From Synechococcus lacustris (GTDB lineage: Bacteria; Cyanobacteriota; Cyanobacteriia; PCC-6307; Cyanobiaceae): a stretch of 64,000 bases of DNA. Location: the NCBI GenBank assembly GCA_903943975.1, contig CAJAQB010000001.1, positions 1-64,000 on the forward strand, in the 5' to 3' direction. The notes under the pieces are model-generated. The model saw only the letters and a list, made by a program, of their open reading frames with translations, ran no database searches and was not told the DNA's origin. Positions 611 through 43,536 of this stretch are shown here, piece after piece. Within the stretch, counting starts at the first letter, position 1. The number at the start of each line of letters is the position of its first letter. Position numbers and translations under genes: made by a program.

Positions 611-661
611 TGCAGATATGCAGATACGAGGGATAACAAGTGCAGATAAGAGGGGTGACAA
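611..661. repeat. Tandem 20-bp repeats, IS21-like transposon end
   Basis: Two near-identical 20-mers lie 22 bp apart: GCAGATACGAGGGATAACAA at 620-639 and GCAGATAAGAGGGGTGACAA at 642-661. A partial third copy (TGCAGATAT) precedes them. Read on the minus strand the block begins TTGTCACC. IS21-family elements have ends starting TGT with several internal 20-bp repeats, so this may be a leftover terminus. No istA or istB gene and no matching inverted end were seen at the other side of the UbiD cluster. A tandem operator for the UbiD operon is the alternative. Confidence 0.4.
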
Positions 662-746
662 TTTTTCTGAACCCTGGGGCAGCGGCTCGAAATCAATGGA
701 TACTTAAAGGGCAAGGATCCCTGTAGGCAGTATTTACAAAATCAAA

Positions 747-2543
747 ATGAAAACCAACTCCACACCACCCCGCGCATACGACGACCTCCAGGCCCATCTT
801 GCAAAGCTAAATCATTACGGGCTTCTTCATACGATCGACATCCCGGTCAACAAAGACCGCAACCTTCATCCCCTAGTACGCTGGAGTTATGTTTCACAGC
901 TTGAATCCCGCGAACGAAAGGGATTCTATTTCACCAATGTCACTGACAGCAACGGGGTGAACTACAAGGGAAACTGCGATGTTTGCGTTGCAACAACCGC
1001 AGGAAATGAGCAGATCTATGCTGTTTCGATGGGCCTTGATGCTCAATTTGATGTAAAGAATCCCGAGATCGACGTCCCGGCTCTCAGCCAGGCCATAGCA
1101 GATAAATGGGCGCAAGCCTTTAGCAATCCGGTGGCCGCAGTCGAGGTAACCGCTGAAGAAGCACCTGTTCAGGAAATCATCATCACCGGCGAAGATCTCA
1201 TCGGCAACGACAAGGGGCTTGCATCATTGCCGATCCCGAATAACACCCCTGGTTTTGATACTGCACCGTATTTTTCTGCGGGACTCTGGGTCACAAAACC
1301 GCTAGATGGCGAACGGGAAAACATCTCTCAAAACCGTACTAATATCAAAGCTTCAAATCGTATGTGCGGGATGTGGCTGATCCAGACCGGCGGCGATGCC
1401 CATAAAAATTGGGAAACCTATAAGAAGGCCGGCAAGAAAATGCCAGTTGCGCTGGTTGTCGGGGCTCCTCCCTCCCTCCAGCTTATCGGCCCGCAAAAAA
1501 CACCGGGCAACATCGATGATTTGGATGTGGCCGGAGGTCTTGTCGGAGCACCGATCCGGAAAGTGCGTTGCAAGACTGTCCCTCTCTTTGTCCCGGCTGA
1601 TGCAAATATCGTTATCGAAGGCTGGGTCGACCCAGAAGTCCTCGAAATGGAGGCGCCCTTCGGCGAATCCCACGGCTACATGAGCATCGAGGAATACAAC
1701 CACCGGATCGAGGTGACCGCAATCACCCGCCGGAAACATGCCATCATCACCTCGATGATCTCTCAGATGGCACCCTCTGAATCAGGCGTCATCAAGCGAC
1801 TCAACTACGGCGCCATAACCTTAAATTTCCTCAAAAATACGCTCGGAATAAATCAAGTACTTAAGGTAGATTTGCACGAGGCTATGGTCGGCGTGTCACG
1901 ATTTACGGTAATAGTTTTTGAGCGCAACACGCCAAAAACAGAAATTTGGCGGGGCCTTCGCGGAGCAACCGTAGCCATGCGCTCGGTGGGCAAGATCACA
2001 GTGGCAGTGGACGAGGATATTGATCCCACAAACCTTGAAGAAGTCCTCTGGTCGATTGCCTACCGCGCCCACCCGAAGCAAGATTACGAAATCCTTGACT
2101 ATCAGGCAAACGGCCATGCGCCGAAGCTACGGCATATGTTCTGGGAGTCGCTGGTCATGATTGATGCCACGCTCAAATACGATATGGCTCCGATCGCCCT
2201 GCCAAAAAAAGAATTTATGCTCGAGGCAAAGGACCTCTGGGAAAAAGCGGGATTACCTCCTGTCCGACCTGCCCGGAAATGGTTTGGCTACAGCCTGGGC
2301 GACTGGTGCGATGAGTGGGATGCGTGCGCCCAGCGGGCCGTCGATGGCAAATGGCTCCTCAATGGCATTCGGACACAAAAAAGCGTGAGCACCGACGACA
2401 TTGGCGGGCCAACCACTGGGATCCCCCGACACGCCACCGCTATCTACGACGAAAAAACCGGTGAAATCCGGTATCCAAAAGGATTTCCGGTGACAGATGA
2501 CGCGATTCCAGACTTCTCTGCCAAGGATCTCTCTGAGTTCTGA
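747..2543 (+). CDS. UbiD-family prenyl-FMN decarboxylase (paralogue 1)
   Basis: Enzymes of this family decarboxylate (or carboxylate) alpha,beta-unsaturated or aromatic acids using prenylated FMN. The active-site signature LEMEAPFGESHGYMSIEEYN, with the conserved acidic residues of the ExPxGE region, lies near residue 300, followed by a stretch with SMISQMAPSESGVIKR. At 598 residues it is longer than the usual 490 or so. It resembles the third ubiD of this cluster over its length: both begin with a DLxxHLxxLxxxGLLHxIDIP segment and share HPLVRW. The start has no clear Shine-Dalgarno sequence. First gene of a same-strand run ubiD-ubiX-ubiD-prpF-ubiD. Codon choice is more AT-rich than in the flanking genes, suggesting transfer. 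Substrate unknown. Confidence 0.9.
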   Translation: MKTNSTPPRAYDDLQAHLAKLNHYGLLHTIDIPVNKDRNLHPLVRWSYVSQLESRERKGFYFTNVTDSNGVNYKGNCDVCVATTAGNEQIYAVSMGLDAQFDVKNPEIDVPALSQAIADKWAQAFSNPVAAVEVTAEEAPVQEIIITGEDLIGNDKGLASLPIPNNTPGFDTAPYFSAGLWVTKPLDGERENISQNRTNIKASNRMCGMWLIQTGGDAHKNWETYKKAGKKMPVALVVGAPPSLQLIGPQKTPGNIDDLDVAGGLVGAPIRKVRCKTVPLFVPADANIVIEGWVDPEVLEMEAPFGESHGYMSIEEYNHRIEVTAITRRKHAIITSMISQMAPSESGVIKRLNYGAITLNFLKNTLGINQVLKVDLHEAMVGVSRFTVIVFERNTPKTEIWRGLRGATVAMRSVGKITVAVDEDIDPTNLEEVLWSIAYRAHPKQDYEILDYQANGHAPKLRHMFWESLVMIDATLKYDMAPIALPKKEFMLEAKDLWEKAGLPPVRPARKWFGYSLGDWCDEWDACAQRAVDGKWLLNGIRTQKSVSTDDIGGPTTGIPRHATAIYDEKTGEIRYPKGFPVTDDAIPDFSAKDLSEF

Positions 2544-2565
2544 CCCCCTCTCTGCAAGGAGCCTC

Positions 2566-3150
2566 ATGAAAAAGCGCTTAATTGTCGGAATCACTGGGGC
2601 CTCAGGGACGATATACGGTGTTCGTCTTCTTGAGATCCTTCGGGAAATCGGCGGGATCGAAACCCACCTCATTACATCTAAGGCCGTTGAACGAACCACC
2701 AGCGAGGAAGGGGGGCGACCGATAAAAGAGATCAAAGCGCTGGCAGACGTCGTCCACGACGAACAGGATATCGGTGCCTCGATCGCAAGCGGTTCCTTCC
2801 GCACGATGGGGATGATCGTCGCGCCCTGTTCGGTGAAGACGATGTCGAGCATCGCAAATTGCATCACTGGGTCGCTGATGACGCGAGCTGCCGATGTCGT
2901 GCTAAAGGAACGCCGTCGCCTTGTCCTGATATTTCGCGAAACGCCCTTCCACCTCGGGCACCTGCGCAACCTGACCGCCCTTACAGAAATGGGAGCCATC
3001 ATCGCCCCCCCGATCCCATCGTTCTACCATCAGCCACAAACGGTCGGCGACATTGTCGATCAGTCGGTCCGTCGCGTCCTCGATCTTTTTGATCTTGACG
3101 TTCCAGGCATCAAACGCTGGAAAGAAACCCTCTCCAAAAGCGATCCCTGA
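2566..3150 (+). CDS. ubiX: UbiX-like flavin prenyltransferase
   Basis: UbiX attaches a dimethylallyl unit to reduced FMN, making the prenyl-FMN cofactor that UbiD enzymes need. The flavin-binding start GITGASGTIYGVRLLEIL, the central APCSVKTMSSIANCI, and the C-terminal RETPFHLGHLRNLTAL and PSFYHQPQT motifs are all present in a protein of normal length (194 residues). I chose the ATG at 2566, preceded by GCAAGGAG, over the ORF start at 2497, which would overlap the upstream gene. Only 22 bp separate it from the first ubiD, so cofactor maker and cofactor user are probably co-transcribed. Having its own ubiX beside three ubiD genes points to a self-sufficient pathway rather than ubiquinone synthesis. 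Confidence 0.92.
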   Translation: MKKRLIVGITGASGTIYGVRLLEILREIGGIETHLITSKAVERTTSEEGGRPIKEIKALADVVHDEQDIGASIASGSFRTMGMIVAPCSVKTMSSIANCITGSLMTRAADVVLKERRRLVLIFRETPFHLGHLRNLTALTEMGAIIAPPIPSFYHQPQTVGDIVDQSVRRVLDLFDLDVPGIKRWKETLSKSDP

Positions 3151-3215
3151 AAAAAAGCGCAGCGGAAAAATAAAATCAATTCTTTCGGCAAAAAACCAAC
3201 CAAAAAGAATTAACA

Positions 3216-4811
3216 ATGAAACAACAGTCCCTCAGCGATTTCGTAAACGACCTCGAAAAGATCGGCCAGCTAGTCCGCATCCGTGAGGAAAAGCGGGTTG
3301 ACGAACTTCCGCAGATCATGGAGCAGAATCCCGACAAGGCCGTTCTTGTCGAAAAGGTCAAGGATTCGGAATTCCAGTTCCTGGCAAATGCCTACTCCAA
3401 CAGAATCCAGTATGCCCATGCGCTGGCATGCCAGGGCGATGAACTGGCGCAGGAAGTGGCGAAGTTTGGAACGAGGACATTCCAACCGGTTTTGGTGCCA
3501 ACGGCTCCTTGCAAGCACGTTATTATAAAAGGGAACGATGTCGATTTGACAAAGCTCCCGCTGTTTCTGCACCACGACCACGACGGCAATGCGTATCTGC
3601 AAGATACCAGTGTCATCTCGCGAGACCCGGACACGGGACTCATGAACTGGGGCATCTATCGTCTGATGTTCCGGTCAAAAAATGAAACAAATGTGGACAT
3701 GCGCAACGACAGCCACAAGGCGCGGGTCCACGCAAAAAAATACCAGGCGAAAGGCGTGGATATGCCGGTCGCCATTGTCATCGGGGGGCCGACGCTCGAT
3801 AAAATCGCTTCCATGTATACCATACCAGGCGTCGACGACTGGGACGTGCTTGGCGGGTTTTATGGCGAGCCTGCCAAGTTGGTGAAATGTGAAACCAATG
3901 ACTTAACTGTTCCTGCAAACGCCGAAATCGTCCTGGAAGGAAGAATCCTGACAACCGAGGGATGGATCTACGACGAAGGCCCCTATGGCGAATTCACGGG
4001 AACTTACGGAGGTGGCTTGCCCGAAAACTGCCGCATGGTCGTGGATTGTGTCACCTATCGTAAAAATGGCATCTACCAGCACGCCACGATCGGCGGGCTT
4101 CATCCCGGGAGAACGGATATGGCGGTTTGGAATGCCACGATAGAAGCCGATATTTATAAGGCGCTTGAAAATGCCGGCATCCAAGTATTGAATGTTTACC
4201 TTCCTAACAACGGCTCCACAAACATCGCGTATGCAAGAATTAAGACTGTTGGAGGTGGCGACGCCAAGCAGGCCCTTGGAATCATGCTCACCTGTTCGCG
4301 GCAGTGGCTGCCAAAGATAGCCTACGTTTTCGACGATGACGTTGATATCTTTGACCCCGACCGGGTGATGTGGGCTCTTGCATGGCGGTTGGATCCGGCC
4401 AAGGATATTATGGTTATGCCCGAGCAGAATGTTTTGCCGCTTGAGCCGATGTGCATGACCAACAAGCCACCGGTTCACCTCGCAAAAGTCGGTTTCGACT
4501 GCACGATCCCTGTGGTGGGCGATGTCGATCGCCTCTCCTTTGCCGCTTGCACCGTGACGGAACCGCTCGGCGATGTTCCGAAGGATCTGAAAATCATGAC
4601 TGAGGCCGAACTCGTCGCTGCCATGACGAAGCATATCGAGGAGGCTCCCCGCACCTGGCACGAAATCCTCAAGCACTTCCACGGCCAGCCGTATCCCAAC
4701 ATCTACCGCGCTTTCGGCGAGCTGCGCCACAAGCTCGGGCGCATGGCTGACGAGAGACCGGCCTATCCCTATGCCTTTTCCGAGAGTTGTTTTGTCTATA
4801 ATGAGAAATAG
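3216..4811 (+). CDS. UbiD-family decarboxylase (paralogue 2)
   Basis: A 531-residue UbiD-fold protein of a different subgroup from its two neighbours. The start MKQQSLSDFVNDLEKIGQLVRI is typical of UbiD/gallate-decarboxylase-type members. The active-site segment reads YDEGPYGEFTGTYGG near residue 255, retaining the acidic residues that act with prenyl-FMN. Family knowledge predicts a soluble oligomer acting on an unsaturated or aromatic acid; the substrate cannot be read from sequence. It follows ubiX after 65 bp and is only 6 bp before prpF, so it is the middle of the operon. Whether the three UbiD proteins form one hetero-oligomer, as multi-subunit carboxylases do, or act in succession is open. 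Confidence 0.9.
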   Translation: MKQQSLSDFVNDLEKIGQLVRIREEKRVDELPQIMEQNPDKAVLVEKVKDSEFQFLANAYSNRIQYAHALACQGDELAQEVAKFGTRTFQPVLVPTAPCKHVIIKGNDVDLTKLPLFLHHDHDGNAYLQDTSVISRDPDTGLMNWGIYRLMFRSKNETNVDMRNDSHKARVHAKKYQAKGVDMPVAIVIGGPTLDKIASMYTIPGVDDWDVLGGFYGEPAKLVKCETNDLTVPANAEIVLEGRILTTEGWIYDEGPYGEFTGTYGGGLPENCRMVVDCVTYRKNGIYQHATIGGLHPGRTDMAVWNATIEADIYKALENAGIQVLNVYLPNNGSTNIAYARIKTVGGGDAKQALGIMLTCSRQWLPKIAYVFDDDVDIFDPDRVMWALAWRLDPAKDIMVMPEQNVLPLEPMCMTNKPPVHLAKVGFDCTIPVVGDVDRLSFAACTVTEPLGDVPKDLKIMTEAELVAAMTKHIEEAPRTWHEILKHFHGQPYPNIYRAFGELRHKLGRMADERPAYPYAFSESCFVYNEK

Positions 4812-4817
4812 GATCCC

Positions 4818-5987
4818 ATGAAAACAGTTCGCGGTATCTTCATGCGGGGAGGAACCAGTAAGGGTGTCTATTTCCACGCCAAGGATCTTCCCAGTGATCC
4901 GAAATTGCGAGACAAAGTGATTCTAGATGTCTATGGCAGCCCCGACATTACTGAGATTGATGGTCTTGGTGGGGCAGATGTTTTGACAAGTAAGACCGCC
5001 ATCATCGAGCGAAGCGCAAGGAAAGATGCCGACGTGGATTACACTTTCGGTCAGGTAATGTTTACGGAGGCGCTGGTCGATTATCGCATCAATTGCGGCA
5101 ACATTTCAGCAGGGGTGGGACCGTTTGCCGTGGACGAGGGATTAGTTGATGATGCGGTGGAGCCGATTACGAGGGTGAGAATTTATAATACCAATACCCA
5201 GAAGATTCTCATCGCCGAGGTACCGGTGAAAAACGGCAAAGCGGTCGTTGAGGGGGATTACAGCATCAGCGGAGTTCCGGGAACCGGGGCAAAAATAACG
5301 CTTGATTTTTCCCAAACAGTAGGCAGCCAGGGCATGGGGCTTCTGCCGACCGGCAAGGTGAGCGAAAAGTTGACGGTGAAGGAAGTAGGCACATTCGATG
5401 TTTCCATCGTGGACGCAGCTAATCTTGCCGTGTTTGTCCCTGCCGAGGCTGTAGGCCTGAGCGGCAAGGAACGCTTTGAAGAAATCCTGGATCACAAAAA
5501 ACTCGGGGAAATCGCAGACAATATTCGTGGAACCGTGGGTGTAAAACTGGGGCTATATCCGGATCTTAAAAGCTTTTTAAGCATCAACCCAACCATGCCG
5601 TTCTGTATCTTTGTTCACCCGCCTGTCGATTATGTCAACTACGAGAACGGAGACCCCGTTCTTGCCTCTTCACAAGATCTCAGGGGGCTGATTCGATTTG
5701 CAGGAGCTTTCCATCATGCCTATTCAGGAACCGGTGCCGTCTGCACGGCGGTGGCGGCCCGCATCGAAGGGACAACGGTTCATGATGCTGTTCCCAAAGA
5801 ACGCATGAACGAGCCAATCATCAGCATCGGGCATCCTTCGGGCATCATCGAAGTCGAAATTAGAGTTGAGAAACAGGGTGATGATTACAAAATTCTTCGG
5901 GCAGCCTACGGTCGCACCTCTCGCAGAATCATGGAAGGCACTATCCACTTGAAGCCTTGGGCGGAGAGAATCGCTGAGTTGCGATGA
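4818..5987 (+). CDS. PrpF/GalD-family isomerase (DUF453)
   Basis: This 389-residue protein has the diaminopimelate-epimerase-like fold of PrpF (2-methylaconitate isomerase) and GalD (4-oxalomesaconate tautomerase). These move a carbon-carbon double bond in tri- or dicarboxylic acids by proton transfer. The N-terminal FMRGGTSKGVYF, a lysine in TSKTAII (about residue 59) and INCGNISAGVG with cysteine near 93 are the family hallmarks. The ATG at 4818 has TAGGATCC upstream, 6 bp after ubiD2. Its place among ubiD genes suggests it creates the alpha,beta-unsaturation a UbiD enzyme needs, or isomerises a product; that is inference. No aconitase-like partner is present. Confidence 0.88.
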   Translation: MKTVRGIFMRGGTSKGVYFHAKDLPSDPKLRDKVILDVYGSPDITEIDGLGGADVLTSKTAIIERSARKDADVDYTFGQVMFTEALVDYRINCGNISAGVGPFAVDEGLVDDAVEPITRVRIYNTNTQKILIAEVPVKNGKAVVEGDYSISGVPGTGAKITLDFSQTVGSQGMGLLPTGKVSEKLTVKEVGTFDVSIVDAANLAVFVPAEAVGLSGKERFEEILDHKKLGEIADNIRGTVGVKLGLYPDLKSFLSINPTMPFCIFVHPPVDYVNYENGDPVLASSQDLRGLIRFAGAFHHAYSGTGAVCTAVAARIEGTTVHDAVPKERMNEPIISIGHPSGIIEVEIRVEKQGDDYKILRAAYGRTSRRIMEGTIHLKPWAERIAELR

Positions 5988-6015
5988 TTTTAGCCAGCCT
6001 CAACAATTGAGAATC

Positions 6016-7680
6016 ATGCCAAACCCGCGCACTTACACCGATCTCAACGAACACCTGACAGCACTGAAGAAGGAGGGCTTGCTCCATATTATAGATATTC
6101 CGATCAATAAAGACAAACACCTTCACCCGCTGGTCCGCTGGCAGTTCCGTGGAGGGATCACATCAGCTGAACGCAAAGGGTTCCACTTCACGAATGTGAC
6201 CGATGGGGCCGGCACTAAGTATGGAGGATCATGCGCGGTCGGAGTGCTGGCCTCCAACCAGCGCATTTACGAAGTCGGAATGGCGGCCACGGCAATGGAG
6301 ATCGGGCCCAAATGGCTCGCGGCCATGGCCAATCCAATCCCGCCACGACTCGTCACAAACGCAGAGTGCCAGGAGGTGGTGATTGCGCGTTCAGAGATCT
6401 GCGACAGCAATGGCCTTGATCTCCTACCTGTCCCGATTTCAACCCCGGGGTTCGATGTGGCCCCCTACTTCACCGCCGGGTGCTGGATTACAAAAGACCC
6501 GGATACGAATATCCAAAATATGGGAGTTTATCGCGGGCACATCAAGTCCTGCGACCGCATAGGAGTGATGATGGAGATGTCCACCCTAGCCGGGGGCTAT
6601 GTGCATTGGAAAAAGTATCAGGCAGCGGGACAGAGGATGCCCGTGGCTCTGGTCCTAGGAGCGCCTCCGATCGTGGAGTTTACCGGCCCGCAGAAACTTC
6701 CGTTGGGGCAGGATGAACTCGGAGTCGCTGGCGCATTGGCGGGTGGAGCAATCAATGTTGTTCGTTGTAAAAGCGTTGATCTGGTTGTTCCGGCGGAGGC
6801 TCAAGCCATCATTGAGGGCTGGATTGATACCGATATCCTCGAGCCCGAGGGGCCGTTTGGCGAGAGCCACGGTTATATGCAAATCGAGGAATATAACTTC
6901 GTCATGCATGTCGAAACGATCACCTTCAGACGCAATCCCATCATCACCTCAATGATCTCCCAGGTGACACCAAGCGAGTCTAGCGTTATCAAAAAACTTG
7001 CCTACGAACCGATCTTTCTCGACCATCTGCGCAACCATCTCAACATCAAATCAGTCCAGCGCATTTCGATGCACGAACCGCTCACGAACCTGCGCAAGGT
7101 TATCTCGGTCGTACTTGATCGCAACGTGACACAAACAGAGGTTTGGCGCGCTCTTCAAGGGCTGTCATCCCTACAGCCAGCGGTCGGGAAGATTTGTGTA
7201 GCCGTGAATGAGGACATCGACCCAGACAACTCCGACCAATTGCTATGGGCGATTGCCTACCGCGCAAACCCAGTATCAGACATTCAGATCCTGAACTATC
7301 GCTCGCCGGGGCACGTACCTAGAACCGCCTCAACCGGCACGGAATCGACGCTGTTTATTGATGCCACGCTGAAATCCGATTTCCCGCCTGTCGCCTTGCC
7401 CAAAAAGGAATTTATGGAGGAAGCCAAGCTGATCTGGGAACAGTTAGGTCTGCCCCCGCTTCATCCCGAAACGCCGTGGCATGGTTACGACCTCGGACAG
7501 TGGTGCCAGGAATGGGATGAAATGGCCGCCAAAGCCACCGCCGGAAATTGGAAGGAAAACGGGGCCCGCGCCCTCTCGCTGCGTACGCACTTGGATGACC
7601 CCCAAGCGGAAGCCGCTGGAATCATCGCCGAATTGCGCTCAAAAGATTGCCCAACCCCTTCGCCTATCGCAAATACCTAG
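6016..7680 (+). CDS. UbiD-family decarboxylase (paralogue 3)
   Basis: Third UbiD protein (554 residues from the ATG at 6016; the ORF track uses an upstream TTG at 6007). It is clearly a diverged copy of the first: shared N-terminal DLNEHLTALKKEGLLHIIDIP and HPLVRW, shared active-site segment LEPEGPFGESHGYMQIEEYN, and shared SMISQVTPSESSVIKK. Insertions and C-termini differ, so the duplication is not recent. It starts 28 bp after prpF and closes the operon. The first and third proteins are both longer than typical UbiD and may be a specialised subfamily. The similarity to gene 1 within one operon hints at two related subunits or two related substrates. Confidence 0.9.
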   Translation: MPNPRTYTDLNEHLTALKKEGLLHIIDIPINKDKHLHPLVRWQFRGGITSAERKGFHFTNVTDGAGTKYGGSCAVGVLASNQRIYEVGMAATAMEIGPKWLAAMANPIPPRLVTNAECQEVVIARSEICDSNGLDLLPVPISTPGFDVAPYFTAGCWITKDPDTNIQNMGVYRGHIKSCDRIGVMMEMSTLAGGYVHWKKYQAAGQRMPVALVLGAPPIVEFTGPQKLPLGQDELGVAGALAGGAINVVRCKSVDLVVPAEAQAIIEGWIDTDILEPEGPFGESHGYMQIEEYNFVMHVETITFRRNPIITSMISQVTPSESSVIKKLAYEPIFLDHLRNHLNIKSVQRISMHEPLTNLRKVISVVLDRNVTQTEVWRALQGLSSLQPAVGKICVAVNEDIDPDNSDQLLWAIAYRANPVSDIQILNYRSPGHVPRTASTGTESTLFIDATLKSDFPPVALPKKEFMEEAKLIWEQLGLPPLHPETPWHGYDLGQWCQEWDEMAAKATAGNWKENGARALSLRTHLDDPQAEAAGIIAELRSKDCPTPSPIANT

Positions 7681-7720
7681 CCAAGCCTCCCGCCATCACT
7701 ACGGCGTTTGGCAGCAGTAA

Positions 7721-7930
7721 GACTGCATCACTAGACCCTGGGATTTTCGGCGTGGCCGCCGGGGTGGGTCAACGCCCAATGGCAGCACCAGTCCCCCCAG
7801 CAGCAGTCCCTCTGCTCACCATTACCGCTGCAAAGAAATTGGTTACTATGCCCGTGCCAAGGAGCTATTGCGGCAGGGACACAGCTATCTCGATGGCAAC
7901 GGGGATGGGGTGGCTTGCTCTAGCGATTAA
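7721..7930 (+). pseudogene. 5'-truncated excalibur-domain gene
   Basis: Missed by the ORF track because no start codon remains. The open frame ends in RCKEIGYYARAKELLRQG followed by SYLDGNGDGVACSSD, which is the excalibur calcium-binding-like motif (cysteine pair with DxDxDGxAC). It is preceded by a short Ser/Pro/Gly linker. Excalibur proteins are usually secreted with an N-terminal signal or nuclease domain; that part is missing, and an in-frame stop at 7718 separates the frame from the UbiD cluster. Its stop overlaps the tspO stop on the other strand. The break marks the right edge of the foreign-looking segment. Confidence 0.6.
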
Positions 7931-8399
7931 GCCGCTGCATCTGCCAGGTCACATAGGTGCCCACCGGACTCCAGAGCAGATAGGGAATCAACAGCAACCA
8001 GGCGGGCTGGGACAGCGGTGCCACCAGCAGCGCTAGGGCTACACCCCAAACCCAGCCCGCAAAACCAAGCACCGTGCCATTGCCTAGGCAGCGGGTACGA
8101 CAGATCAGCCAGGTGTAGCTCTGCACCAGCACCAGTAATCCCAGATAGCCACCCATCAGCCCCCAGCTTGGGCTTGCCGACCAGCTGAGCAAAGCTGAGA
8201 AGTAAAAACAGGCATAGATGCTGATCCAGATCAATGGGATCAAACCTTCAAAGCTGAGCCAATCGGGACGCCGCAGGCGCAGGAACCAGGCGAAATCCTC
8301 ACGGCTGGGATTCAGTGCAGCCGCAACGGCCACCAGCACCAGCAGGAGTACCAACGCAACGGCCACAGCCCCTTCCTCTGACCACAAGAGCCTGGCCAA
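7920..8399 (-). CDS. TspO/MBR-like membrane protein
   Basis: A 159-residue hydrophobic protein with about five membrane segments, matching the tryptophan-rich sensory protein (TspO/MBR) fold that binds tetrapyrroles and related ligands. Supporting features are the conserved RRPDWLSFEGLIPLIW near residue 45, aromatic-rich helices, and the closing LLIPYLLWSPVGTYVTW. TspO proteins in phototrophs are linked to porphyrin export and stress signalling. No ATG is available; TTG at 8399 or an internal GTG must be used, as an in-frame stop lies a few codons upstream. It converges on the excalibur remnant with an 11-bp overlap. Confidence 0.7.
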   Translation of the reverse strand: MARLLWSEEGAVAVALVLLLVLVAVAAALNPSREDFAWFLRLRRPDWLSFEGLIPLIWISIYACFYFSALLSWSASPSWGLMGGYLGLLVLVQSYTWLICRTRCLGNGTVLGFAGWVWGVALALLVAPLSQPAWLLLIPYLLWSPVGTYVTWQMQRLNR

Positions 8400-8475
8400 C
8401 AGATTTTATGCAAAAACCGAATAAACAGCCAACACTGCTGAACAGCGGCAGGCTGGTGGTAGTGGCGCTGTGCTG

Positions 8476-8805
8476 ATGGCCCGGACCTTACTGCTGCTAG
8501 CCCTAGCCGTTACGGCCTCTCTGGGCTCTACGGCCCTAGCCCAGCAGCCCGTACGGCCGCTGCCACGGCTGGGTAGCTGCCCGATTGGGTACTACAGCTC
8601 CGGTAGCTATTGCGTGCCCTCCAGCGCTGGCAACAGCCGTGGCGCCATTGAAAAAACAGGCAACAGCTGTCCGATTGGTTTTTATAGCGCTGGTAACTAC
8701 TGCCTCAGCAGTCCACAAAACGAACGGGAGGCAATCCAGAAAACCGGCAATTCCTGCCCAATCGGCTGGTTTAGCTCCAGCAGTTACTGCGTTAAAAGCC
8801 GTTGA
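8476..8805 (+). CDS. Small secreted protein with three CPIGYYSSGSYC repeats
   Basis: I do not recognise a named family. The protein (109 residues from the ATG at 8476; GTG at 8470 is possible) begins with a classic signal peptide ending in ALAQQ. The mature part contains three near-identical units of about 33 residues: SCPIGYYSSGSYCVPSS, SCPIGFYSAGNYCLSS and SCPIGWFSSSSYCVKS. Each carries two cysteines eight residues apart, so one disulfide per unit is likely. Spacers (AIEKTGN, AIQKTGN) repeat as well. Such small cysteine-repeat proteins occur in picocyanobacteria, probably periplasmic or extracellular. Function unknown. Confidence 0.75.
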   Translation: MARTLLLLALAVTASLGSTALAQQPVRPLPRLGSCPIGYYSSGSYCVPSSAGNSRGAIEKTGNSCPIGFYSAGNYCLSSPQNEREAIQKTGNSCPIGWFSSSSYCVKSR

Positions 8806-8850
8806 TGCCGGCAGAAGACCTACCGGCGGACCTAGAGGCGGACCTACCGG

Positions 8851-9099
8851 CAGGCCCCCGGCAGAACTGCCGCCTTAAGCAGCAATGGCCACAGGCTCTC
8901 GCTCCTCTGGGGCCCGTGCCACTGGCGCCTGCTCCTCTAGGGCTGAACCTTCTGGGATTTCCGGATAGATCAAATCCGCCGCCTGCCTGGCATCTCTGAG
9001 CACTTGAAATAGCAGCTTGGGCGATTGCTTGAGTAGGTCAATCTAGTGGCCGAGGTAGGCGTGTTCGGCGACGATTAGGTATGCGCCCGCCTACGTAGT
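8851..9099. repeat. Direct repeat, copy 1 (ArdC tail plus junction motif)
   Basis: About 250 bp that recur at 11074-11325 in the same orientation with scattered substitutions. Both copies begin CAGGCCCCCGGCAGAAC and both end exactly at CTACGTAGT, after which the sequences differ. The 2-kb interval between the copies holds the hsdM remnant and the zeta-like pair. Homologous exchange between the copies could delete that interval. The right end contains a motif also seen near 18405 and 20735. Confidence 0.85.
8875..9080 (-). pseudogene. ArdC-like zincin antirestriction protein, C-terminal scrap 1
   Basis: On the minus strand this copy reads AYLGH, then a stop, then IDLLKQSPKLLFQVLR and ARQAADLIYPE. 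This resembles the tail of ArdC-type proteins (ssDNA-binding plus zincin-like domain), where YLxxWLxxLKxD...IFxAAxxAQxAxD is typical. A TGG tryptophan codon has become TAG, as comparison with copy 2 shows. The catalytic part is absent. Clearly non-functional. Confidence 0.5.
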
Positions 9100-9172
9100 T
9101 GACACCGGGCACTTTCGTTTTCACGTGGTCGATCCAGGAATCGGGAACATGAGCTGTATCTGGCTCCAGGCC
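9100..9172 (-). pseudogene. Scrap of a type I methyltransferase C-terminus
   Basis: A short piece reads EPDTAHVPDSWIDHVKTKVP, matching HVPDDWIDHSKTKKGYEIPF near the end of the HsdM remnant encoded just upstream on the same strand. It then runs into VNYVGGR, which is the start of the repeated junction motif. It is therefore the tail of a second HsdM-like gene cut off by the repeat. Confidence 0.45.
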
Positions 9173-9173
9173 C

Positions 9174-9371
9174 TCAGCCCTCATCGCTCGGCTCCAGCGC
9201 CCTTTCCAGCTCAGTGCCCTGCAGGATGCGCAGCTCGCCATCCATCTCCACGGCGATGCCGGTGCCGGTCTGGCGGGCCAGCTCCCGGGCCCGCTGTCCG
9301 GCACGGAGCAAGGCAACGGAGACGTGTTGCAGGTCGGGGTCCTGGCGCTCGGTGGTGAATCCTGCTGTCAT
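9174..9371 (-). CDS. Small partner protein of the zeta-like kinase (putative antitoxin)
   Basis: A 65-residue acidic protein whose ATG overlaps the stop of the zeta-like gene by four bases (ATGA). It reads DLQHVSVALLRAGQRARELARQTGTGIAVEMDGELRIL, a helix followed by a short strand pair. I cannot assign it to a named antitoxin family. Its size, tight coupling to a zeta-like P-loop kinase and position immediately downstream support a toxin-antitoxin role, as inference. Confidence 0.6.
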   Translation of the reverse strand: MTAGFTTERQDPDLQHVSVALLRAGQRARELARQTGTGIAVEMDGELRILQGTELERALEPSDEG

Positions 9372-9889
9372 GGTCGGCCTCCTTCGCTGAGCAGCCTCGG
9401 GGCTGGTCCACCATTATCGATCGTCTGCCACTCGTTGACCAACTGCCGGTACAAGCCCTCGTAGTTTCTGAGCCCAGCCTTCAAGCGCCTGGCGATGACA
9501 TCCGGAGGGATCGCATGTCCACCCTGTCGTACGCGAAGTTGAACTCGGGCCGTCGCTTGCTCCACCGATCGCAGCTGGAGAAAGACCAGCTTCACTGAGT
9601 ATCCCAGGCTTTGCCAGGAGCTGATCCGATGGACATAAGCCTTGCCTGAAAGCGTGGTTTCAAACGCAAAGCTGATCCCAGCTGCCCCGCAGCGATCGAT
9701 CTCCTCCAGCATCAGCCGCCCCGCCCGCCGGGCTGCAAGTTCCGGCGCAAATGGCGACAGACCGGCGGCGATCAGATCAGCATTGATGAAGGTGGTAATG
9801 CCAACCTCCAACGGCAGATATTCACGGGCAAACGTGGTTTTGCCGGCGCCATTGGGTCCGGCGATGATGATGATTCTTTTCTCAGCCAC
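9368..9889 (-). CDS. Zeta-toxin-like P-loop kinase
   Basis: A 173-residue protein starting with KRIIIIAGPNGAGKTTFAREYLP, a Walker A motif, followed by FINADLIAAGLSPF and RRAGRLMLEEI, typical of the zeta-toxin/AAA_33 family. Zeta toxins phosphorylate UDP-N-acetylglucosamine and block wall synthesis; small chromosomal relatives are often of unproven activity. FAFETTLSG and the arginine-rich IARRLKAGLRNYEGLY segment complete the domain. The start is GTG at 9889, overlapping the hsdM remnant by 8 bases. The small gene overlapping its 3' end is probably its antitoxin. Confidence 0.8.
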   Translation of the reverse strand: MAEKRIIIIAGPNGAGKTTFAREYLPLEVGITTFINADLIAAGLSPFAPELAARRAGRLMLEEIDRCGAAGISFAFETTLSGKAYVHRISSWQSLGYSVKLVFLQLRSVEQATARVQLRVRQGGHAIPPDVIARRLKAGLRNYEGLYRQLVNEWQTIDNGGPAPRLLSEGGRP

Positions 9890-10982
9890 TCAACCCCCCG
9901 ATCATCTCCAGGATCCGATCTGTCACCTGTTTCAGCTCGGCATCAATCTCTTCCAGGGGCCTTGGCGGTGTGAACACGTAGAAGTGTCTATTGAATGGAA
10001 TCTCGTAGCCCTTCTTGGTCTTGCTGTGGTCTATCCAGTCGTCGGGTACGTGGGGCAGTACCTCTCGCTCGAAGTAGGTCTCCACGTCTTCTGACAGCGG
10101 CACGCTCTCTGTGTCTCTCAGGCTGCTGTCGACCTGGGGCTTCCCTTTCGCTTTGCCCTTTTGCCCCAAAAGAACGTTCCCTGCCTCGTCTCTCACTGGC
10201 CTCTCAACCGTGATCGTGCGGTAGCTAAAGGCTTCATTGCGGAAAATCTTGCTGATTGGCTTGCCATCCTTTGGGTTATGGCTGACCAAGTGCTCCTCAG
10301 CAATGCTCAGCATCCCCCCAGTGCCTGCTGTGGGGTCGTACAGGCTGCGAACGATGCCTGGTTGGGTCAGGGCGTCGTCGTCTTCGATAAAGATGAGGTT
10401 CACCATCAACCGGATGACCTCGCGGGGTGTGAAGTGCTCACCAGCGGTCTCATTCGATAGTTCCGCGAACTTCCGAATCAGCTCCTCAAACACCAACCCC
10501 ATCTGGGCGTTGCTGACCGTTTCGGGGTGCAGGTCAATCTGACCGAACTTCTCCGTGACCAGGTACAGCAGGTTGGCCTTGTCCAGCTTTTCCACCTGAA
10601 GGCTGAACTCAAAGCTCTCAAAGATGTCCCGAACTGCTGGGCTGAACCCTTGGATGTAGCTCCGTAGGTTCTCGGCGATGTTGTCGCCGTCACCCATCAG
10701 CCGCTTCATGTCCAGCGGCGTGGTGCTGCAGAAGTTATGGCCAGCCTTGCGGAGCAGGAAAGGCTCCGGGTCAAGTCCCTGTCCCTCCCGTAGGGCCTTC
10801 TCCTCCAGTACCGCCGCCTTGGTCGGCTCCAACACACAGTCCAGGCGCCTCAAGACGGTGAAAGGCAGGATGACCTTGCCGTAGTCGCTTTGCTTGTAGT
10901 CGCCCCGGAGTAGGTCGGCTACTGACCAAATAAAGGCAGAGAGGTTGGTTGCGGCCAAGCAGCGCCCAGGCAGTGCCCCCAT
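9882..10982 (-). pseudogene. hsdM: Type I restriction methylase HsdM with catalytic middle deleted
   Basis: HsdM is the N6-adenine methyltransferase subunit of type I restriction systems. The frame is open for 366 residues and retains the N-terminal helical domain (SVADLLRGDYKQSDYGKVILPF), FTPREVIRLMVNLIF and the SAM-binding motif YDPTAGTGGMLS near residue 215. Straight after HLVSHNP it jumps to KPISKIFRNEAFSYRTITVERP, which belongs near the C-terminus. About 200 residues, including the catalytic NPPF/Y motif, are missing, with the frame preserved. Full-length relatives run to 500 residues or more. No hsdS is present. It probably cannot methylate DNA, though a stable truncated protein is possible. 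Confidence 0.8.
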
Positions 10983-11073
10983 CTTGTATGCAGGCCTTTC
11001 AATCTGCTATGGCCTTTGGACTTTCCCCGGCTTTTAGGTGTTGGCTCCAAGGTGCAGGCAGAAGGCCTAGGAG

Positions 11074-11325
11074 CAGGCCCCCGGCAGAACTGCCGCCTTA
11101 AGCAGCGATAGCCACGGCTGGCCCCACTGGGGCTGGCTCTGGAACAGGGGCTTCCTGCCCCTCTGGGGCTGAACCTTCTGGGATTTCCGGATAGATCAAA
11201 TCTGCCGCCTGCCTGGCTTCCCTGAGCACTTGAAATAGCAGCTTGGGCGATTGCTTGAGTAGCTCAATCCAGTGGCCGAGATAGGCGTGTTCGGCGACGA
11301 TTAGGTATGCGCCCGCCTACGTAGT
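11074..11325. repeat. Direct repeat, copy 2 (ArdC tail plus junction motif)
   Basis: Second copy of the repeat at 8851-9099. It is slightly longer because of small insertions in the proline/alanine-rich part. It ends at CTACGTAGT and is followed immediately by the Eco57I-like methylase fragment. Confidence 0.85.
11098..11310 (-). pseudogene. ArdC-like antirestriction protein, C-terminal scrap 2
   Basis: Reads AYLGHWIELLKQSPKLLFQV then LREARQAADLIYPEIPEGSA on the minus strand, ending in a proline-rich tail and TAA at 11098. It lacks the N-terminal ssDNA-binding and HExxH metallopeptidase parts expected of a roughly 300-residue ArdC protein. Unlike copy 1 its frame is open, but no start of the gene remains: the sequence upstream belongs to another, oppositely oriented gene fragment. 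Confidence 0.5.
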
Positions 11326-11327
11326 CG

Positions 11328-12128
11328 GAGCAATCGTCATCCTCGCTTCGGGTCTACGAGGGCAAGTGTGGCTGGCAGTTTGATCACCGCTATTCATCCT
11401 TTGAGAATGGTGACTACATGCCCCTTCCGGACAGCCTCAAGGATTCCGTATTTGAGATAGAAACGGAGTACCACCTCTTGGATGATCAGTTCAATGAGAT
11501 CCTCAAAGGATACAAATCAACTTTTTGGGGGTCGCTGAACGCATTTCTAGGATTCAGAAGAGTTAGCAGGTCAACGGATGAGCGGACAATGGTCGCGTGC
11601 ATCCTGCCGCCTCAGCCCTCGACCTATGGCTGGATATTAAGTCTTGGCATGTCTGCAGAATACATGGCAGCCCTTTGCGGGGTATAGAATACTTTAACGT
11701 TTGACTATCTGCTGCGTAATAGTCTTAGCCAGCCAAGCATTCCCCAAGGAGTTGTCGAGCAAGTCGCCGTTCCTGATTCTTCCTCTGTAGATTTCTATTT
11801 TGTAGTACCAAGAGTACTTGAGCTTTCTTACACCAGTCTTTCGTTGAAGCCCTGGGCCCAAGACATCGGCTACGACGGCCCACCCTTCTTCTTCGATCCC
11901 GAACGCCGCGCCCTGCTGCGGGCCGAACTCGATACCTACTACGCCCACCCCTACGGCCTCACTCTCGACGAGCTGCGCTACATCCTCGATCCCGCTGATG
12001 TGATGGGCCCCGATTACCCCAGCGAAACCTTCCGCGTACTCAAGAATAACGAGATCCGCCAGTTCGGCGAGTACCGCACACAGAGGTTGGTGCTGGAGGC
12101 GTGGGATCGGTTGTTTGGGGGTGGGTGA
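11328..12128 (+). pseudogene. Eco57I/PglX-like DNA methylase, C-terminal part with one in-frame TAG
   Basis: One reading frame runs from the repeat junction to TGA at 12126, broken only by TAG at 11685. The first half reads VYEGKCGWQFDHRYSSFENG and FLGFRRVSRSTDERTMVACI, and the second half DIGYDGPPFFFDPERRALLR and DPADVMGPDYPSETFRVLKN. Both resemble the target-recognition and C-terminal parts of large class I restriction-methylase proteins such as Eco57I-type or BREX PglX. The methyltransferase core (1000 residues or so in relatives) is gone, cut by the repeat. The TAG sits where relatives read GxLNSLxFDY. The track splits it into 11418-11687 and 11844-12128, both in the same frame. Confidence 0.7.
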
Positions 12129-12173
12129 TGGGTTGCAGCCCTCTCTAGAGTTACCGCAGAGGCGAAGCATCGA

Positions 12174-12407
12174 ATGAACAGCCAGCTGGATCGCATCACC
12201 ATGAATCCTGCCGTTTGCCACGGCAAACCCACCATCCGCGGTCTGCGCTACCCCGTGGATGTGGTGCTTGATCTGCTCGCTGCGGGCATGAGCGTGGCGG
12301 AGATCCTTGCCGATTACCCCGATCTCGAAGCCGCTGACATCTCCGCCGTCTTGTCCTACGCCGCCCAGTTGTCACGGGTTCAGAGCGTTGAGCTGCTGTC
12401 TGCATGA
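12174..12407 (+). CDS. DUF433 antitoxin
   Basis: A 77-residue DUF433 protein: DRITMNPAVCHGKPTIRGLR then VDVVLDLLAAGMSVAEILAD and YPDLEAADISAVLSYAA are the family hallmarks, a winged-helix-like DNA-binding antitoxin. Its stop overlaps the next start as ATGA, the standard arrangement for DUF433/DUF5615 toxin-antitoxin pairs, in which the antitoxin neutralises the toxin and represses the pair. Confidence 0.88.
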   Translation: MNSQLDRITMNPAVCHGKPTIRGLRYPVDVVLDLLAAGMSVAEILADYPDLEAADISAVLSYAAQLSRVQSVELLSA

Positions 12408-12757
12408 AGATCCTGCTGGACGCCCAGTTGCCTCGCTCACTGGTTCGGATTCTCCAGGCCGAGGGTTGCGATGCCGTGCACACCATTGATCTTCCTGAAG
12501 GCAACCGCAGTACGGATTCATCGATCAGTGCAAGGGCTGATGATCAAGGTCGCGTGGTTTTCAGTAAGGATGCCGACTTTATTCAGAGCCTGCTGTTACA
12601 GGGATCTCCCAGGAAGCTGCTCGTCGTCGCAACAGGCAATATCAGCAACAAGGAGCTGTCTACGTTGTTGATCCGTTGGCTCCCATCACTGAAAGATCTG
12701 TTCCTAAGCCACGACCTGATCGAGTTGCATCGATCAGCATTGATCATCCGGCGTTGA
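12404..12757 (+). CDS. DUF5615 PIN-like toxin
   Basis: A 117-residue PIN-like (Mut7-C related) protein, presumed RNase toxin of the DUF433 pair. MKILLDAQLPRSLVRIL carries the first acidic residue of the active site, and VVFSKDADFIQSLLLQGSP the second cluster. The C-terminal NKELSTLLIRWLPSL segment is also typical. It is full length and in frame, so this pair appears intact, unlike most genes around it. Confidence 0.85.
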   Translation: MKILLDAQLPRSLVRILQAEGCDAVHTIDLPEGNRSTDSSISARADDQGRVVFSKDADFIQSLLLQGSPRKLLVVATGNISNKELSTLLIRWLPSLKDLFLSHDLIELHRSALIIRR

Positions 12758-12767
12758 TCTTTCGGTA

Positions 12768-13385
12768 TTGATCTTTCTGGCCGCCGTCGATAACGCCGCC
12801 GCCTTCATCCCGGCACTGGAGTGGCTGGCTAACGAGATCCTCGGCAACATCCTTACCCACGCCGCAGCAGAAACCCCCGGTGTGGTCTGCGCCCAGTACC
12901 GCCCCAAGCAGCAACGCTTCGACATCGGCATCTGCGACATGGGCCGCTGTCTGCTCGGCTCCTACGAAATCGTGCGCCTGAATGGCGGCACCTATCAGAT
13001 CTGGACGGGGGATGTGGTCTATGAACTCAACAAGGGCAAGCGGCGGCCCGGTTTCCAGGGCATGCCGCCGCTACTCGGCACGGGGGTGGAGTGCCTGTTC
13101 CTCAATCAGCTAACGGAATTCGCCAGCGACAGCGGCCTCGATCTGGCCAGTGAATGCATCCACACCGGCGGTCGAGCGCCCGCCAAACTTCTGCGCCGCA
13201 AAATCCAGGGCCTCCTGCCCGCCATGGACGGGGAACCCTTGATCCTGGATTTCTCCGGTGTCAAATCCGCCGCCAGCAGCTTTCACGACGAACTGCTCGG
13301 ACGTCTCGCGGCAGAAGACCCCCGCGGTCAGGCCATGGCCAACGTCGTGGTGGCGCAGCGGTTGGGGCGGCAGATCAGCGGCTGA
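12768..13385 (+). pseudogene. HATPase plus DUF4325 STAS-like protein with internal loss
   Basis: The open frame of 205 residues joins three parts. First is WLANEILGNILTHAAAETPG, like the N-box helix of GHKL ATPases (ExxxNxxxHA). Next comes a stretch ending PPLLGTGVECLF, like the G-box end of the same fold. Last is ILDFSGVKSAASSFHDELLG, the DUF4325 STAS-like signature. The segment between the first two, which should carry the ATP-lid and the DNGxG motif, is shortened, and the N-terminus lacks an ATG (TTG at 12768). Full-length relatives, often in defence or regulatory loci, are about 300 residues or longer. I judge it degraded, though a shortened protein could be made. Confidence 0.5.
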
Positions 13386-13416
13386 CGGTTTTGACGGTTT
13401 GACATAGGATCAGCCC

Positions 13417-13764
13417 ATGAGCGCGATCAGCCCAGCCCTCCTCAACGACGTGACTGCTGCCCTGCGGGATGCAGGCCGCAGCGACCTGGTTGAGCGCCTA
13501 ATGGCAAGCGCTAAGGCAGACACGCTCACCAGCACGCAAGCTGCCGCACTGCTTGGCGTGGCTTCCGCCAACACCGTGAAGAACTGGCTGGATGGCGGCT
13601 ATTTCCCAGGAGCGTTTCAAACCCCAGGCGGTCACTGGCGTTTTTCCCGCGAAGACGTCGAATCGGTCAAAATGCGCATGGAAGAACTTCGTGCCCGCAA
13701 TCGACACGGGGATCTCATGCCAGTGGGAGGGGATGAGGACAGCGTTCATCCACCTCTGCCCTGA
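13417..13764 (+). CDS. Excisionase-type helix-turn-helix protein (orphan antitoxin)
   Basis: A 115-residue DNA-binding protein. The central TLTSTQAAALLGVASANTVK followed by NWLDGGYFPGAFQTPGGHWR and FSREDV is the MerR/excisionase-like helix-turn-helix with wing. Proteins of this form, with an N-terminal helical region, are usually the antitoxin of a PIN-domain toxin encoded directly downstream. Here the next sequence is an HsdR scrap instead, so the expected toxin is missing. It could also act as an independent regulator. Confidence 0.75.
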   Translation: MSAISPALLNDVTAALRDAGRSDLVERLMASAKADTLTSTQAAALLGVASANTVKNWLDGGYFPGAFQTPGGHWRFSREDVESVKMRMEELRARNRHGDLMPVGGDEDSVHPPLP

Positions 13765-13775
13765 GGTTTCAGCCA

Positions 13776-14144
13776 TCCGCTGAGCCGGCCTTCACAGATC
13801 AAATACACACCTGGTCTTTATCGGCAGCGAAGACCGGCATCGCCGACGAAGTCGGCACCGCCAGTAACGACGACAAGGTGGGCTACGTAGGCACGGTAAT
13901 TCGGAACAAGCTGCTGGAGTCCAAAACCCTGCAGCTTCAAGCAGCCAGCAACAGCAGAGAACAGTTCGCCAGCTCACCGGACCTCGCTCGGGCTCAACAG
14001 GACGCAATCATCGACGCCCTTGACGCCCACCAGGCCATGAACAGCCAAGCATTGAATAGCCCATACCTTCAGAGGCGAATGCTGGAGATGCTGCTGGGGA
14101 ACTTCAATCTCTGGGAAGGGCTCAGGGAGAAAGCCCTCAGTTAG
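13776..14144 (+). pseudogene. Type I restriction HsdR, C-terminal scrap
   Basis: GYVGTVIRNKLLESKTLQLQ then AASNSREQFASSPDLARAQQ and DAIIDALDAHQAMNSQALNS match the C-terminal helical region of HsdR endonuclease/translocase subunits (NxxLESxxLxxQAxxNSxEQFxxSPDL). The frame remains open upstream to about 13776 without a start codon and without family resemblance. HsdR is normally around 1000 residues; nuclease and helicase parts are absent. Together with the HsdM remnant this shows that one or more type I restriction loci once stood here. Confidence 0.65.
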
Positions 14145-14371
14145 CTCCCGGCCAATAGCGTCTGCGTAGTTGAAACCGATCAACCAGAGCCAGGACGTTG
14201 CAAAACGCAGGGGCTCCCCTTGCTGTTACTGGATCTTTGCTTTGCAAGTGCAGATTCCTGCTCACTGGCGAGTTGCTGCGAACCGATCACCCCTCCCTGA
14301 TCCGCTGAGTGGATCCGTGGCGAACCTGAGGGAGGTAGCATTAAAGTGTTGCTCGCATTGGAATCCAGTGA
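14145..14371. other. Intergenic, nothing recognised
   Basis: No open frame or repeat of note. It presumably contains the promoter of the downstream DMT permease; no confident -10/-35 was identified. Confidence 0.3.
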
Positions 14372-16140: not shown

Positions 16141-16196
16141 AGCAACTCCAGTTTGGAAGGTTGATCTAATATCTGAGTTGTGCAGGGATTAGTCAT

Positions 16197-16889: not shown

Positions 16890-16976
16890 GCTTCGTTGAT
16901 TTGGTGCTGCAAGTTTAGTTGTCTGATCTTTGCTGTCTCGATCCTCGACCTAGAATGCCAGATATTGTCATAAAAA

Positions 16977-17382: not shown

Positions 17383-17477
17383 CTAATCAGTACCTAAATA
17401 CTGATCTGGTCCATCAATCCCCCAGGTGGCTCAAATGGAGAGCTCTCATCTTTCCAGGCAGAGCGGCTTTCGGTCAT

Positions 17478-17777: not shown

Positions 17778-17786
17778 CTGGTTGGT

Positions 17787-18062: not shown

Positions 18063-18113
18063 AACGACCTCCACGGACCACTGCCAAGATTTCGAGCCTA
18101 CGGATCCTGGCAA

Positions 18114-37169: not shown

Positions 37170-37332
37170 CGCATCAAAGATGAACAAATAAGACTATAGG
37201 CCAACCAAAAGCAGCAAGAACAAGACCACTCAACCTTGCTTGCTTCAGCCAAGCAATGATGTCGCGCAAAACACAAGCTGCAATGATAAATCGAAGCAAT
37301 TTCGCGAAAAACCAGGTTCCTGACAGCTACAA

Positions 37333-39481: not shown

Positions 39482-39489
39482 GGCAACCA

Positions 39490-41028: not shown

Positions 41029-41070
41029 GGTACTAGGGGAGAGGAGTGGTGTTTAAAGAAGGCAAATAAA

Positions 41071-42528: not shown

Positions 42529-42606
42529 GGTGAGGAATGATTGGAGAGAAGGGCTTACCCGGCAGCCTGGTAAGCCCAAGGAAAATGGCGTTAATCGCCA
42601 CTAAAC

Positions 42607-43536
<930 letters not shown>

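Follow-up and report, generated by a model that had tools for sequence, protein, structure and literature searches.

Synechococcus lacustris carries a five-gene operon encoding three UbiD-type proteins (UbiD-a, UbiD-b, and UbiD-c), a UbiX flavin prenyltransferase, and a PrpF-family isomerase. With a probability of about one half we regard it as the compact, acquired form of an undescribed prFMN-dependent decarboxylation cassette, where PrpF and UbiD-b act in tandem and UbiD-a and UbiD-c form a pair. The same set, in some cases with further genes, recurs in a small number of unrelated bacteria from three other phyla. This recurrence suggests that the genes encode a metabolic pathway not yet described. 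UbiD enzymes add or remove CO2 reversibly and are wanted as biocatalysts, and many of them are without a known substrate.

The Operon and Its Genes

The window analyzed is a stretch of 64,000 nucleotides from the start of contig CAJAQB010000001.1. Five full-length, co-directional ORFs are found at positions 747-7680 of its forward strand (Table 1), in the order UbiD-a, UbiX, UbiD-b, PrpF, and UbiD-c, with intergenic gaps of 22, 65, 6, and 28 nt, respectively. The initial annotation described three UbiDs, a UbiX, and a PrpF in a tight run without any transporter or regulator. This description holds, as all five ORFs are intact, the gaps span 6-65 nt, the Pfam and NCBIfam assignments agree with it, and neither a transporter nor a regulator is encoded inside the run. 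Neither a tRNA nor a flanking repeat could be identified at the operon. Since the gene set is found again in 11 other clusters, the grouping goes beyond chance.

Table 1. Genes of the S. lacustris operon, with positions in the window.
Gene and predicted function	Position	Strand	Remarks
UbiD-a, prFMN-dependent (de)carboxylase	747..2543	+	598 aa; C-terminal extension; clade exclusive to the cassette
UbiX, flavin prenyltransferase (prFMN synthesis)	2566..3150	+	Assigned by Pfam and NCBIfam; in 12/12 clusters
UbiD-b, second UbiD subfamily	3216..4811	+	531 aa; cassette relatives 66-73% identical; far from known UbiDs
PrpF, double-bond (delta) isomerase	4818..5987	+	389 aa; K59, C93, and C309 present
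UbiD-c, UbiD-a paralogue (49% identity)	6016..7680	+	554 aa; belongs to a large proteobacterial UbiD subfamily

UbiX contains the Flavoprotein/UbiX Pfam domain (E = 2.3e-41) and passes two NCBIfam UbiX models, with scores of 262 bits (cut-off 188) and 226 bits (cut-off 109). It is an extra copy, as another UbiX-like gene is found on contig C9 of the host genome; a fourth UbiD, of the canonical type, is encoded on contig C19.

The Three UbiD Proteins

UbiD-a, UbiD-b, and UbiD-c all belong to the UbiD family, the Pfam domain being recognized with 156, 194, and 174 bits (cut-off 23.3; E = 6.8e-46, 2.9e-57, and 3e-51, respectively). The catalytic positions N-x4-R, E, and E-(G/A)-P-(F/Y)-G-E are retained in each of them, and based on domain and catalytic residues they are predicted to be prFMN-dependent (de)carboxylases.

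In the UbiD tree the 24 UbiD-a and UbiD-c genes from the 12 clusters form one starred clade (98*), and the UbiD-a genes form a clade of their own (100*). UbiD-a and UbiD-c therefore stem from a duplication within the cassette, with both copies retained across four phyla. UbiD-b forms a separate, deep clade. The initial annotation asked for such a tree, and none of the three proteins groups with the characterized UbiDs compared, which include HmfF, VdcC, canonical UbiD, and ppcA/ppcB. HmfF, VdcC, and canonical UbiD are found in separate 100* clades, on branches of more than two changes per column.

The predicted structure of UbiD-a (pLDDT 80.9) displays the UbiD fold. The 2,5-furandicarboxylate decarboxylase HmfF (PDB 6h6v), VdcC/ShVdcC, and Escherichia coli UbiD share the fold and the catalytic motif with the UbiDs of the window, while the identities are about 22-26%, with several classes scoring alike and the clades apart. 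A Foldseek search with UbiD-a likewise named no substrate, as HmfF, VdcC, UbiD, HudA, AroY, and Fdc1 score alike. The AlphaFold model of UbiD-b has a pLDDT of 33 and was left out of the evidence. The nearest plasmid-borne relative of UbiD-b, from Methylobacterium nodulans (57%), is a solitary gene without the cassette. Relatives of UbiD-c often have Mo-hydroxylase genes nearby (43 of 85 loci).

The PrpF Protein

PrpF is a clear member of its Pfam family (360 bits, E = 1.4e-107). The equivalog models for 2-methylaconitate isomerase (TIGR02334, 266.9 bits against a cut-off of 440.6) and 4-oxalomesaconate tautomerase (NF033377, 307.9 bits against 440) are both missed. The closest relative with a solved structure is the 3-methylitaconate isomerase Mii (PDB 3g7k; 48% identity), where K62 and C96 align with K59 and C93 of the window PrpF; C309 is kept as well. 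Lys73 and Cys107 are known to matter in a Shewanella PrpF (PMC5690661). The two proteins form no starred grouping in the PrpF tree, and Mii differs from the window PrpF in its role in nicotinate fermentation. To our knowledge, Mii has no link to UbiD.

Other PrpF genes were considered as members of the cassette and not counted. Those in the Reyranella genomes lie outside the clusters and group with 2-methylaconitate isomerases, while that of Methylocapsa is surrounded by unrelated genes. Plasmid-encoded relatives found by tblastn (41-48%) have MmgE/PrpD, TTT-transporter, or aconitase genes as neighbors, a UbiD gene being absent from the neighborhoods inspected.

Related Clusters in Other Bacteria

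The 11 other clusters are found in Reyranellaceae, in Beijerinckiaceae-family genomes, in one Lentisphaeria, and in one actinomycete, so that the cassette is spread over four phyla, Cyanobacteriota included. Each of the 12 clusters contains UbiD-a, UbiD-c, and UbiX. UbiD-b is present in eight of them, once with an apparent frame break, and is decayed in one more, that of Methylocapsa. The initial annotation knew of no system with this make-up; the make-up itself is thus not unique, while its function does appear to be undescribed in the open-access literature. No paper was found there that names a UbiD-PrpF-UbiX or a UbiD-methylitaconate system, or that links UbiD with PrpF, and the sole match for UbiD together with MmgE mentions each once.

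One type of PrpF (67-69% identical) adjoins UbiD-b in three cases, namely the window, a Lentisphaeria (69% identical to the window PrpF), and a Beijerinckiaceae-family genome (68%). The proposed link between PrpF and UbiD, judged mechanistically sensible from the sequence of the window, is thereby strengthened, as it is seen in three phyla. A second PrpF type is found inside or beside two clusters lacking UbiD-b. The Reyranella clusters have UbiD-b and neither of these PrpF types, showing that PrpF is not obligatory for the cassette. In one of the Reyranella clusters the genes are followed by those of a protocatechuate 3,4-dioxygenase.

The operon was also thought to be self-contained, which it probably is not. 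Related clusters variously have additional genes, for MmgE/PrpD, a second UbiD-b, a PNPOx-like protein, or a chaperone resembling LpdD; MmgE/PrpD is carried by both the Lentisphaeria and the Beijerinckiaceae-family clusters with the window-type PrpF. In the latter genome, a single run of eight genes encodes UbiD-c, UbiD-a, UbiX, a PNPOx-like protein, two copies of UbiD-b, PrpF, and MmgE/PrpD. The pathway encoded in the window may be partial, since MmgE/PrpD is missing from the operon and neither PNPOx nor an LpdD-like gene is found in the host genome.

Proposed Pathway and Alternative Readings

We infer the order of the steps, the pairing of UbiD-a with UbiD-c, and the chemistry from the sequences. 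The substrates would be unsaturated or (hetero)aromatic polycarboxylic acids, and UbiX would supply prFMN to all three UbiDs. A di- or tricarboxylate resembling aconitate or itaconate may have its C=C bond shifted by PrpF to the α,β-position of a carboxylate, which UbiD-b, encoded beside it, would then remove. The duplicated UbiD-a and UbiD-c would be partners, probably in one heteromeric enzyme and possibly in two successive steps, acting on a second acid of the same route that is probably (hetero)aromatic or conjugated. In the fullest version of the cassette, MmgE/PrpD may contribute a dehydration or a decarboxylation beside PrpF. A PrpF feeding a decarboxylase has a precedent in Adi1 and Tad1 of Ustilago maydis, which are also encoded by clustered genes with the isomerase upstream of the decarboxylase step (PMC4720413). 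However, Tad1 is of the CMLE type and not a UbiD, no UbiX is involved, and the fungus makes and exports itaconate. More tentatively, a PrpF delta-isomerase and UbiD tandem acting on an aliphatic unsaturated polycarboxylate might be joined to a heteromeric UbiD-a/UbiD-c decarboxylase in a mobile module that would serve the phototroph in the salvage or synthesis of an unsaturated acid.

The main competing explanation, which we consider rather unlikely, is that a single heteromeric (de)carboxylase of an aromatic compound is built from the UbiDs, PrpF acting later or being incidental. Phenylphosphate carboxylase has two UbiD subunits, and its cluster in Azoarcus/Thauera (ppcBDAG with UbiD and UbiX) resembles the operon in having three UbiD-family genes and UbiX in a single run, in Azoarcus KH32C as ppcB-ppcD-ppcA-ppcG-UbiD-UbiX. 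In N47, the naphthalene carboxylase cluster includes four UbiD-like genes, and a heteromeric complex, of about 750 kDa, is proposed (PMC12016498). Two UbiD-like subunits in the aniline carboxylation of D. anilini are 52% identical (PMC7500099), compared to 49% for UbiD-a and UbiD-c. The phenylphosphate cluster differs, however, in its UbiD clades, in ppcD and ppcG, neither of which is in the operon, in an adjoining PEP/pyruvate-binding gene, and in the lack of PrpF. No UbiD of the window groups with ppcA or ppcB, and the corresponding models are far from passed (TIGR02723, at most 162 against 565 bits; TIGR02724, at most 106 against 469). The N47 cluster, compared by description only, has nine genes and belongs to an anaerobic sulfate reducer, PrpF being unmentioned in the passages considered. 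Phosphate-handling, gamma-subunit, and CoA-ligase genes were not recognized, and both PrpF and MmgE/PrpD are repeatedly linked to the cassette.

Such multi-UbiD clusters imply that three UbiDs need not mean three steps. Three successive decarboxylations of one polycarboxylated compound, with a double-bond shift by PrpF between them, are a less likely explanation still. The operon does encode three distinct UbiDs and an isomerase with no further enzymes, some clusters have a second UbiD-b, and tandem arrays of two to four UbiD-c-like genes exist at other loci (L030, L036, L045). On the other hand, no candidate polycarboxylate is known, and UbiD-a and UbiD-c, born within the cassette and always co-occurring, fit partners as well as successive steps.

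Origin of the Operon

At E ≤ 1e-60, no UbiD-a match is found in any other of 386 cyanobacterial genomes, in line with the initial view that these genes are unexpected in a photoautotroph. The contig is genuinely cyanobacterial, and so are the flanks of the operon, which was therefore acquired horizontally by one picocyanobacterium from a source outside the cyanobacteria.

That the operon is passenger DNA, unexpressed or decaying, seems improbable. Its presence in one of 386 genomes, its position close to a contig end with zeta-toxin-like and HsdM-like ORFs as neighbors, a promoter scan barely above chance, and the degraded UbiD-b of Methylocapsa would fit this; yet all five genes are full length, closely packed, and keep their catalytic residues, and the codon usage is only moderately atypical. 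An assembly or binning artefact, suggested by the foreign affinities and the location within the first 7.7 kb of the contig, can practically be dismissed, as the closest relatives of a TspO-like gene located 240 nt downstream belong to the family (64%) and genus (54%) of the host, the region at 20-39 kb matches relatives, nif, rbcL, chlN, and dnaA follow further along the contig, and the stated contamination of the assembly is 0%.

Significance

The cassette links two uncharacterized UbiD clades to PrpF, and in its fullest form also to MmgE/PrpD, which narrows the class of substrates to be considered. It is a compact gene set for expression, and the eight-gene relative makes its function directly testable through growth and knock-out experiments. 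Its transfer into a picocyanobacterium shows that such a route can be acquired as a single block.

The UbiD-UbiX Operon and its Host Genome

The initial annotation described a tight UbiD-UbiX-UbiD-PrpF-UbiD run, and this description holds: five co-directional, full-length ORFs are separated by 22, 65, 6, and 28 nt in order, and the family assignments of all five proteins are backed by Pfam and NCBIfam. All three UbiD proteins (UbiD-a, -b, and -c) retain the family's catalytic residues at N-x4-R and E/E. The predicted structure of UbiD-a (pLDDT 80.9) displays the UbiD fold and is about equally close to several UbiD classes. PrpF has the catalytic lysine and cysteine, which align to K62 and C96 of 3-methylitaconate isomerase (PDB 3g7k) and by the same motifs correspond to K73 and C107 of Shewanella PrpF, both required for function (PMC5690661). 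Outside the operon, one more UbiD, a canonical one, and a second UbiX-like gene are encoded in the host genome (2.47 Mb in 23 contigs, completeness 95.4%, contamination 0%); the operon thus supplies its own, extra prenyl-FMN (prFMN) synthase.

The operon is foreign to cyanobacteria, yet genuinely part of this contig. No other genome in the phylum (386 genomes, 143 genera) has a UbiD-a match at E<=1e-60, and PrpF was found in none of 59 relatives. The contig itself is cyanobacterial, since the TspO-like gene, the first downstream of the operon, finds its closest relatives within the same family (64%) and genus (54%), the 20-39 kb region matches relatives, and nif, rbcL, chlN, and dnaA are found further on. 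The operon genes have a lower G+C content (51-56%) and somewhat atypical codon usage, as do some neighbours. Neither a tRNA nor flanking repeats were detected at the operon. Nearby, a zeta-toxin-like ORF overlaps an HsdM-like methylase ORF, and the pair is possibly a restriction-modification remnant. The window also contains two shikimate dehydrogenase-like genes (about 73% DNA identity, 3 kb apart) and the nif genes of this small-genome Cyanobiaceae-like host, accompanied by mod genes named from translations. Transfer of a nitrogenase operon has been reported for Vulcanococcus (PMC5902973).

Features of the window and gene orders of related clusters (a, b, c: UbiD-a, -b, -c)
Locus	Feature or gene order	Position (strand)
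Window	operon, a-UbiX-b-PrpF-c	747-7680
Window	UbiD-a, operon gene 1	747-2543
Window	UbiX, gene 2	2566-3150
Window	UbiD-b, gene 3	3216-4811
Window	PrpF, gene 4	4818-5987
Window	UbiD-c, gene 5	6016-7680
Window	TspO-like gene	7920-8399
Window	zeta-toxin-like ORF	9368-9889 (-)
Window	HsdM-like methylase ORF	9882-10982 (-)
Window	shikimate dehydrogenase-like	18871-19743 (-)
Window	shikimate dehydrogenase-like	22958-23806 (+)
Window	modA, modBC-like	34420-37187
Window	nifV, nifK, nifD, nifH, nifU, nifS, nifB, nifE, nifN	38366-50599
Reyranella	c-a-b-UbiX-PNPOx; b doubled in one genome, unrecognised in another	
Reyranella MAG (L023)	protocatechuate 3,4-dioxygenase beta, alpha (pcaHG), directly after c-a-b-UbiX-PNPOx	12777-14037
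Lentisphaeria	b-PrpF-MmgE/PrpD-b; opposite strand a-LpdD-like-c-UbiX	single 20.7-kb contig
Beijerinckiaceae-family (L145)	c-a-UbiX-PNPOx-b-b-PrpF-MmgE/PrpD	7295-18094
L146	c-a-UbiX-PNPOx-PrpF	
Actinomycete	PrpF adjoining UbiX-a-another UbiD-PNPOx-c	

Distribution and Phylogeny of the Cassette

The neighbourhood search that had been proposed showed that the gene set recurs, but its order and content vary. A tblastn map comprises 12 clusters, the window included; UbiD-a, UbiD-c, and UbiX are present in all 12, a PNPOx-like gene in 10, UbiD-b in eight (with an apparent frame break in the Reyranella L023 copy), and PrpF in or beside five. The Methylocapsa cluster retains only a fragment of UbiD-b. 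When genome contigs were scanned, where locus counts are lower bounds, UbiD-a orthologues (62-67%) were found at five loci only among the matches listed, the remaining ones being UbiD-c-like (<=48%). Kin searches found UbiD-a in 6 of 75 Reyranellaceae genomes, 3 of 397 of the Methylocapsa family, and 1 of 388 of the phylum of the Lentisphaeria genome. Some UbiD-c-like loci (L030, L036, L045, and others), from Rhodospirillaceae and relatives, have two to four such genes in tandem, and the UbiD-c-like loci taken together often have molybdenum hydroxylase, CoxG-like, and TTT-binding-protein genes nearby.

In a quick 63-row UbiD tree, with SH-aLRT support only and long branches flagged by the program, a single clade of 24 sequences (98) unites UbiD-a and UbiD-c from every one of the 12 clusters and contains no others. 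The UbiD-a genes are a clade of 12 (100) arising inside UbiD-c, which indicates that UbiD-a originated by duplication in this cassette and that the two copies have since travelled as a pair between phyla. UbiD-b forms its own clade (100) on a long branch. The window UbiDs grouped with none of HmfF, VdcC, E. coli UbiD, or ppcA/ppcB, which are among the characterised UbiDs placed in the tree, only some of those known.

The PrpF proteins of the window, Lentisphaeria, and L145 constitute one clade (100/100) and are 67-69% identical. A second type (77-79% identical to each other) is found inside or next to the L146 and actinomycete clusters, both without UbiD-b, and in Methylocapsa, away from the cluster, where UbiD-b is decayed. 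Clusters without UbiD-b or with a decayed one (L011, L146, L097/L131, L013) go with the second type, while those holding both UbiD-b and PrpF have the window type. PrpF thus joined the cassette in two lineages, and this argues for a functional link of PrpF with the cassette.

The Lentisphaeria gene is called LpdD-like because it matches Pfam PF21758 (bacterial proteasome-assembling-chaperone-like), and LpdD, a prFMNH2-binding UbiD chaperone, folds like the proteasome chaperone Pba3/4 (PMC10865409); we infer that they are one family. Nothing in the host genome matches PF21758.

Possible Function

UbiX makes prFMN, with which UbiD enzymes decarboxylate alpha,beta-unsaturated or aromatic acids. 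PrpF proteins shift C=C bonds in polycarboxylates, and the MmgE/PrpD family includes 2-methylcitrate dehydratases and cis-aconitate decarboxylase. The coupling of PrpF to UbiD suggested initially, in either direction, fits the gene neighbourhoods: window-type PrpF adjoins UbiD-b in all three genomes having it, and MmgE/PrpD as well in two. Because of this adjacency, and because in Ustilago trans-aconitate from the PrpF isomerase Adi1 feeds the decarboxylase Tad1 (PMC4720413), it is proposed that PrpF would provide UbiD-b with an alpha,beta-unsaturated di- or tricarboxylate.

More probably, UbiD-a and UbiD-c work as a pair, with a second and perhaps (hetero)aromatic acid as their substrate. Molybdenum hydroxylase genes lie within ~8 kb of 43 of the 85 loci searched, nearly all UbiD-c-like, and pcaHG follows one Reyranella cluster; as pointers to the acid these neighbours are suggestive only. 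The pairing could be that of a heteromeric carboxylase. Like the window operon, the phenylphosphate carboxylase cluster has multiple UbiD genes, which there serve one heteromeric enzyme, and further precedents are naphthalene carboxylase, with four UbiD-like genes and ~750 kDa (PMC12016498), and aniline carboxylation, with two UbiD-like subunits 52% identical (PMC7500099). A full carboxylase reading must make PrpF and MmgE/PrpD later steps, while supply of UbiD-b by PrpF allows a heteromeric a/c pairing. Readings as three stepwise decarboxylations or as a silent passenger operon have less support. The eight-gene run of L145 is the fullest version of the cassette and the best experimental system.
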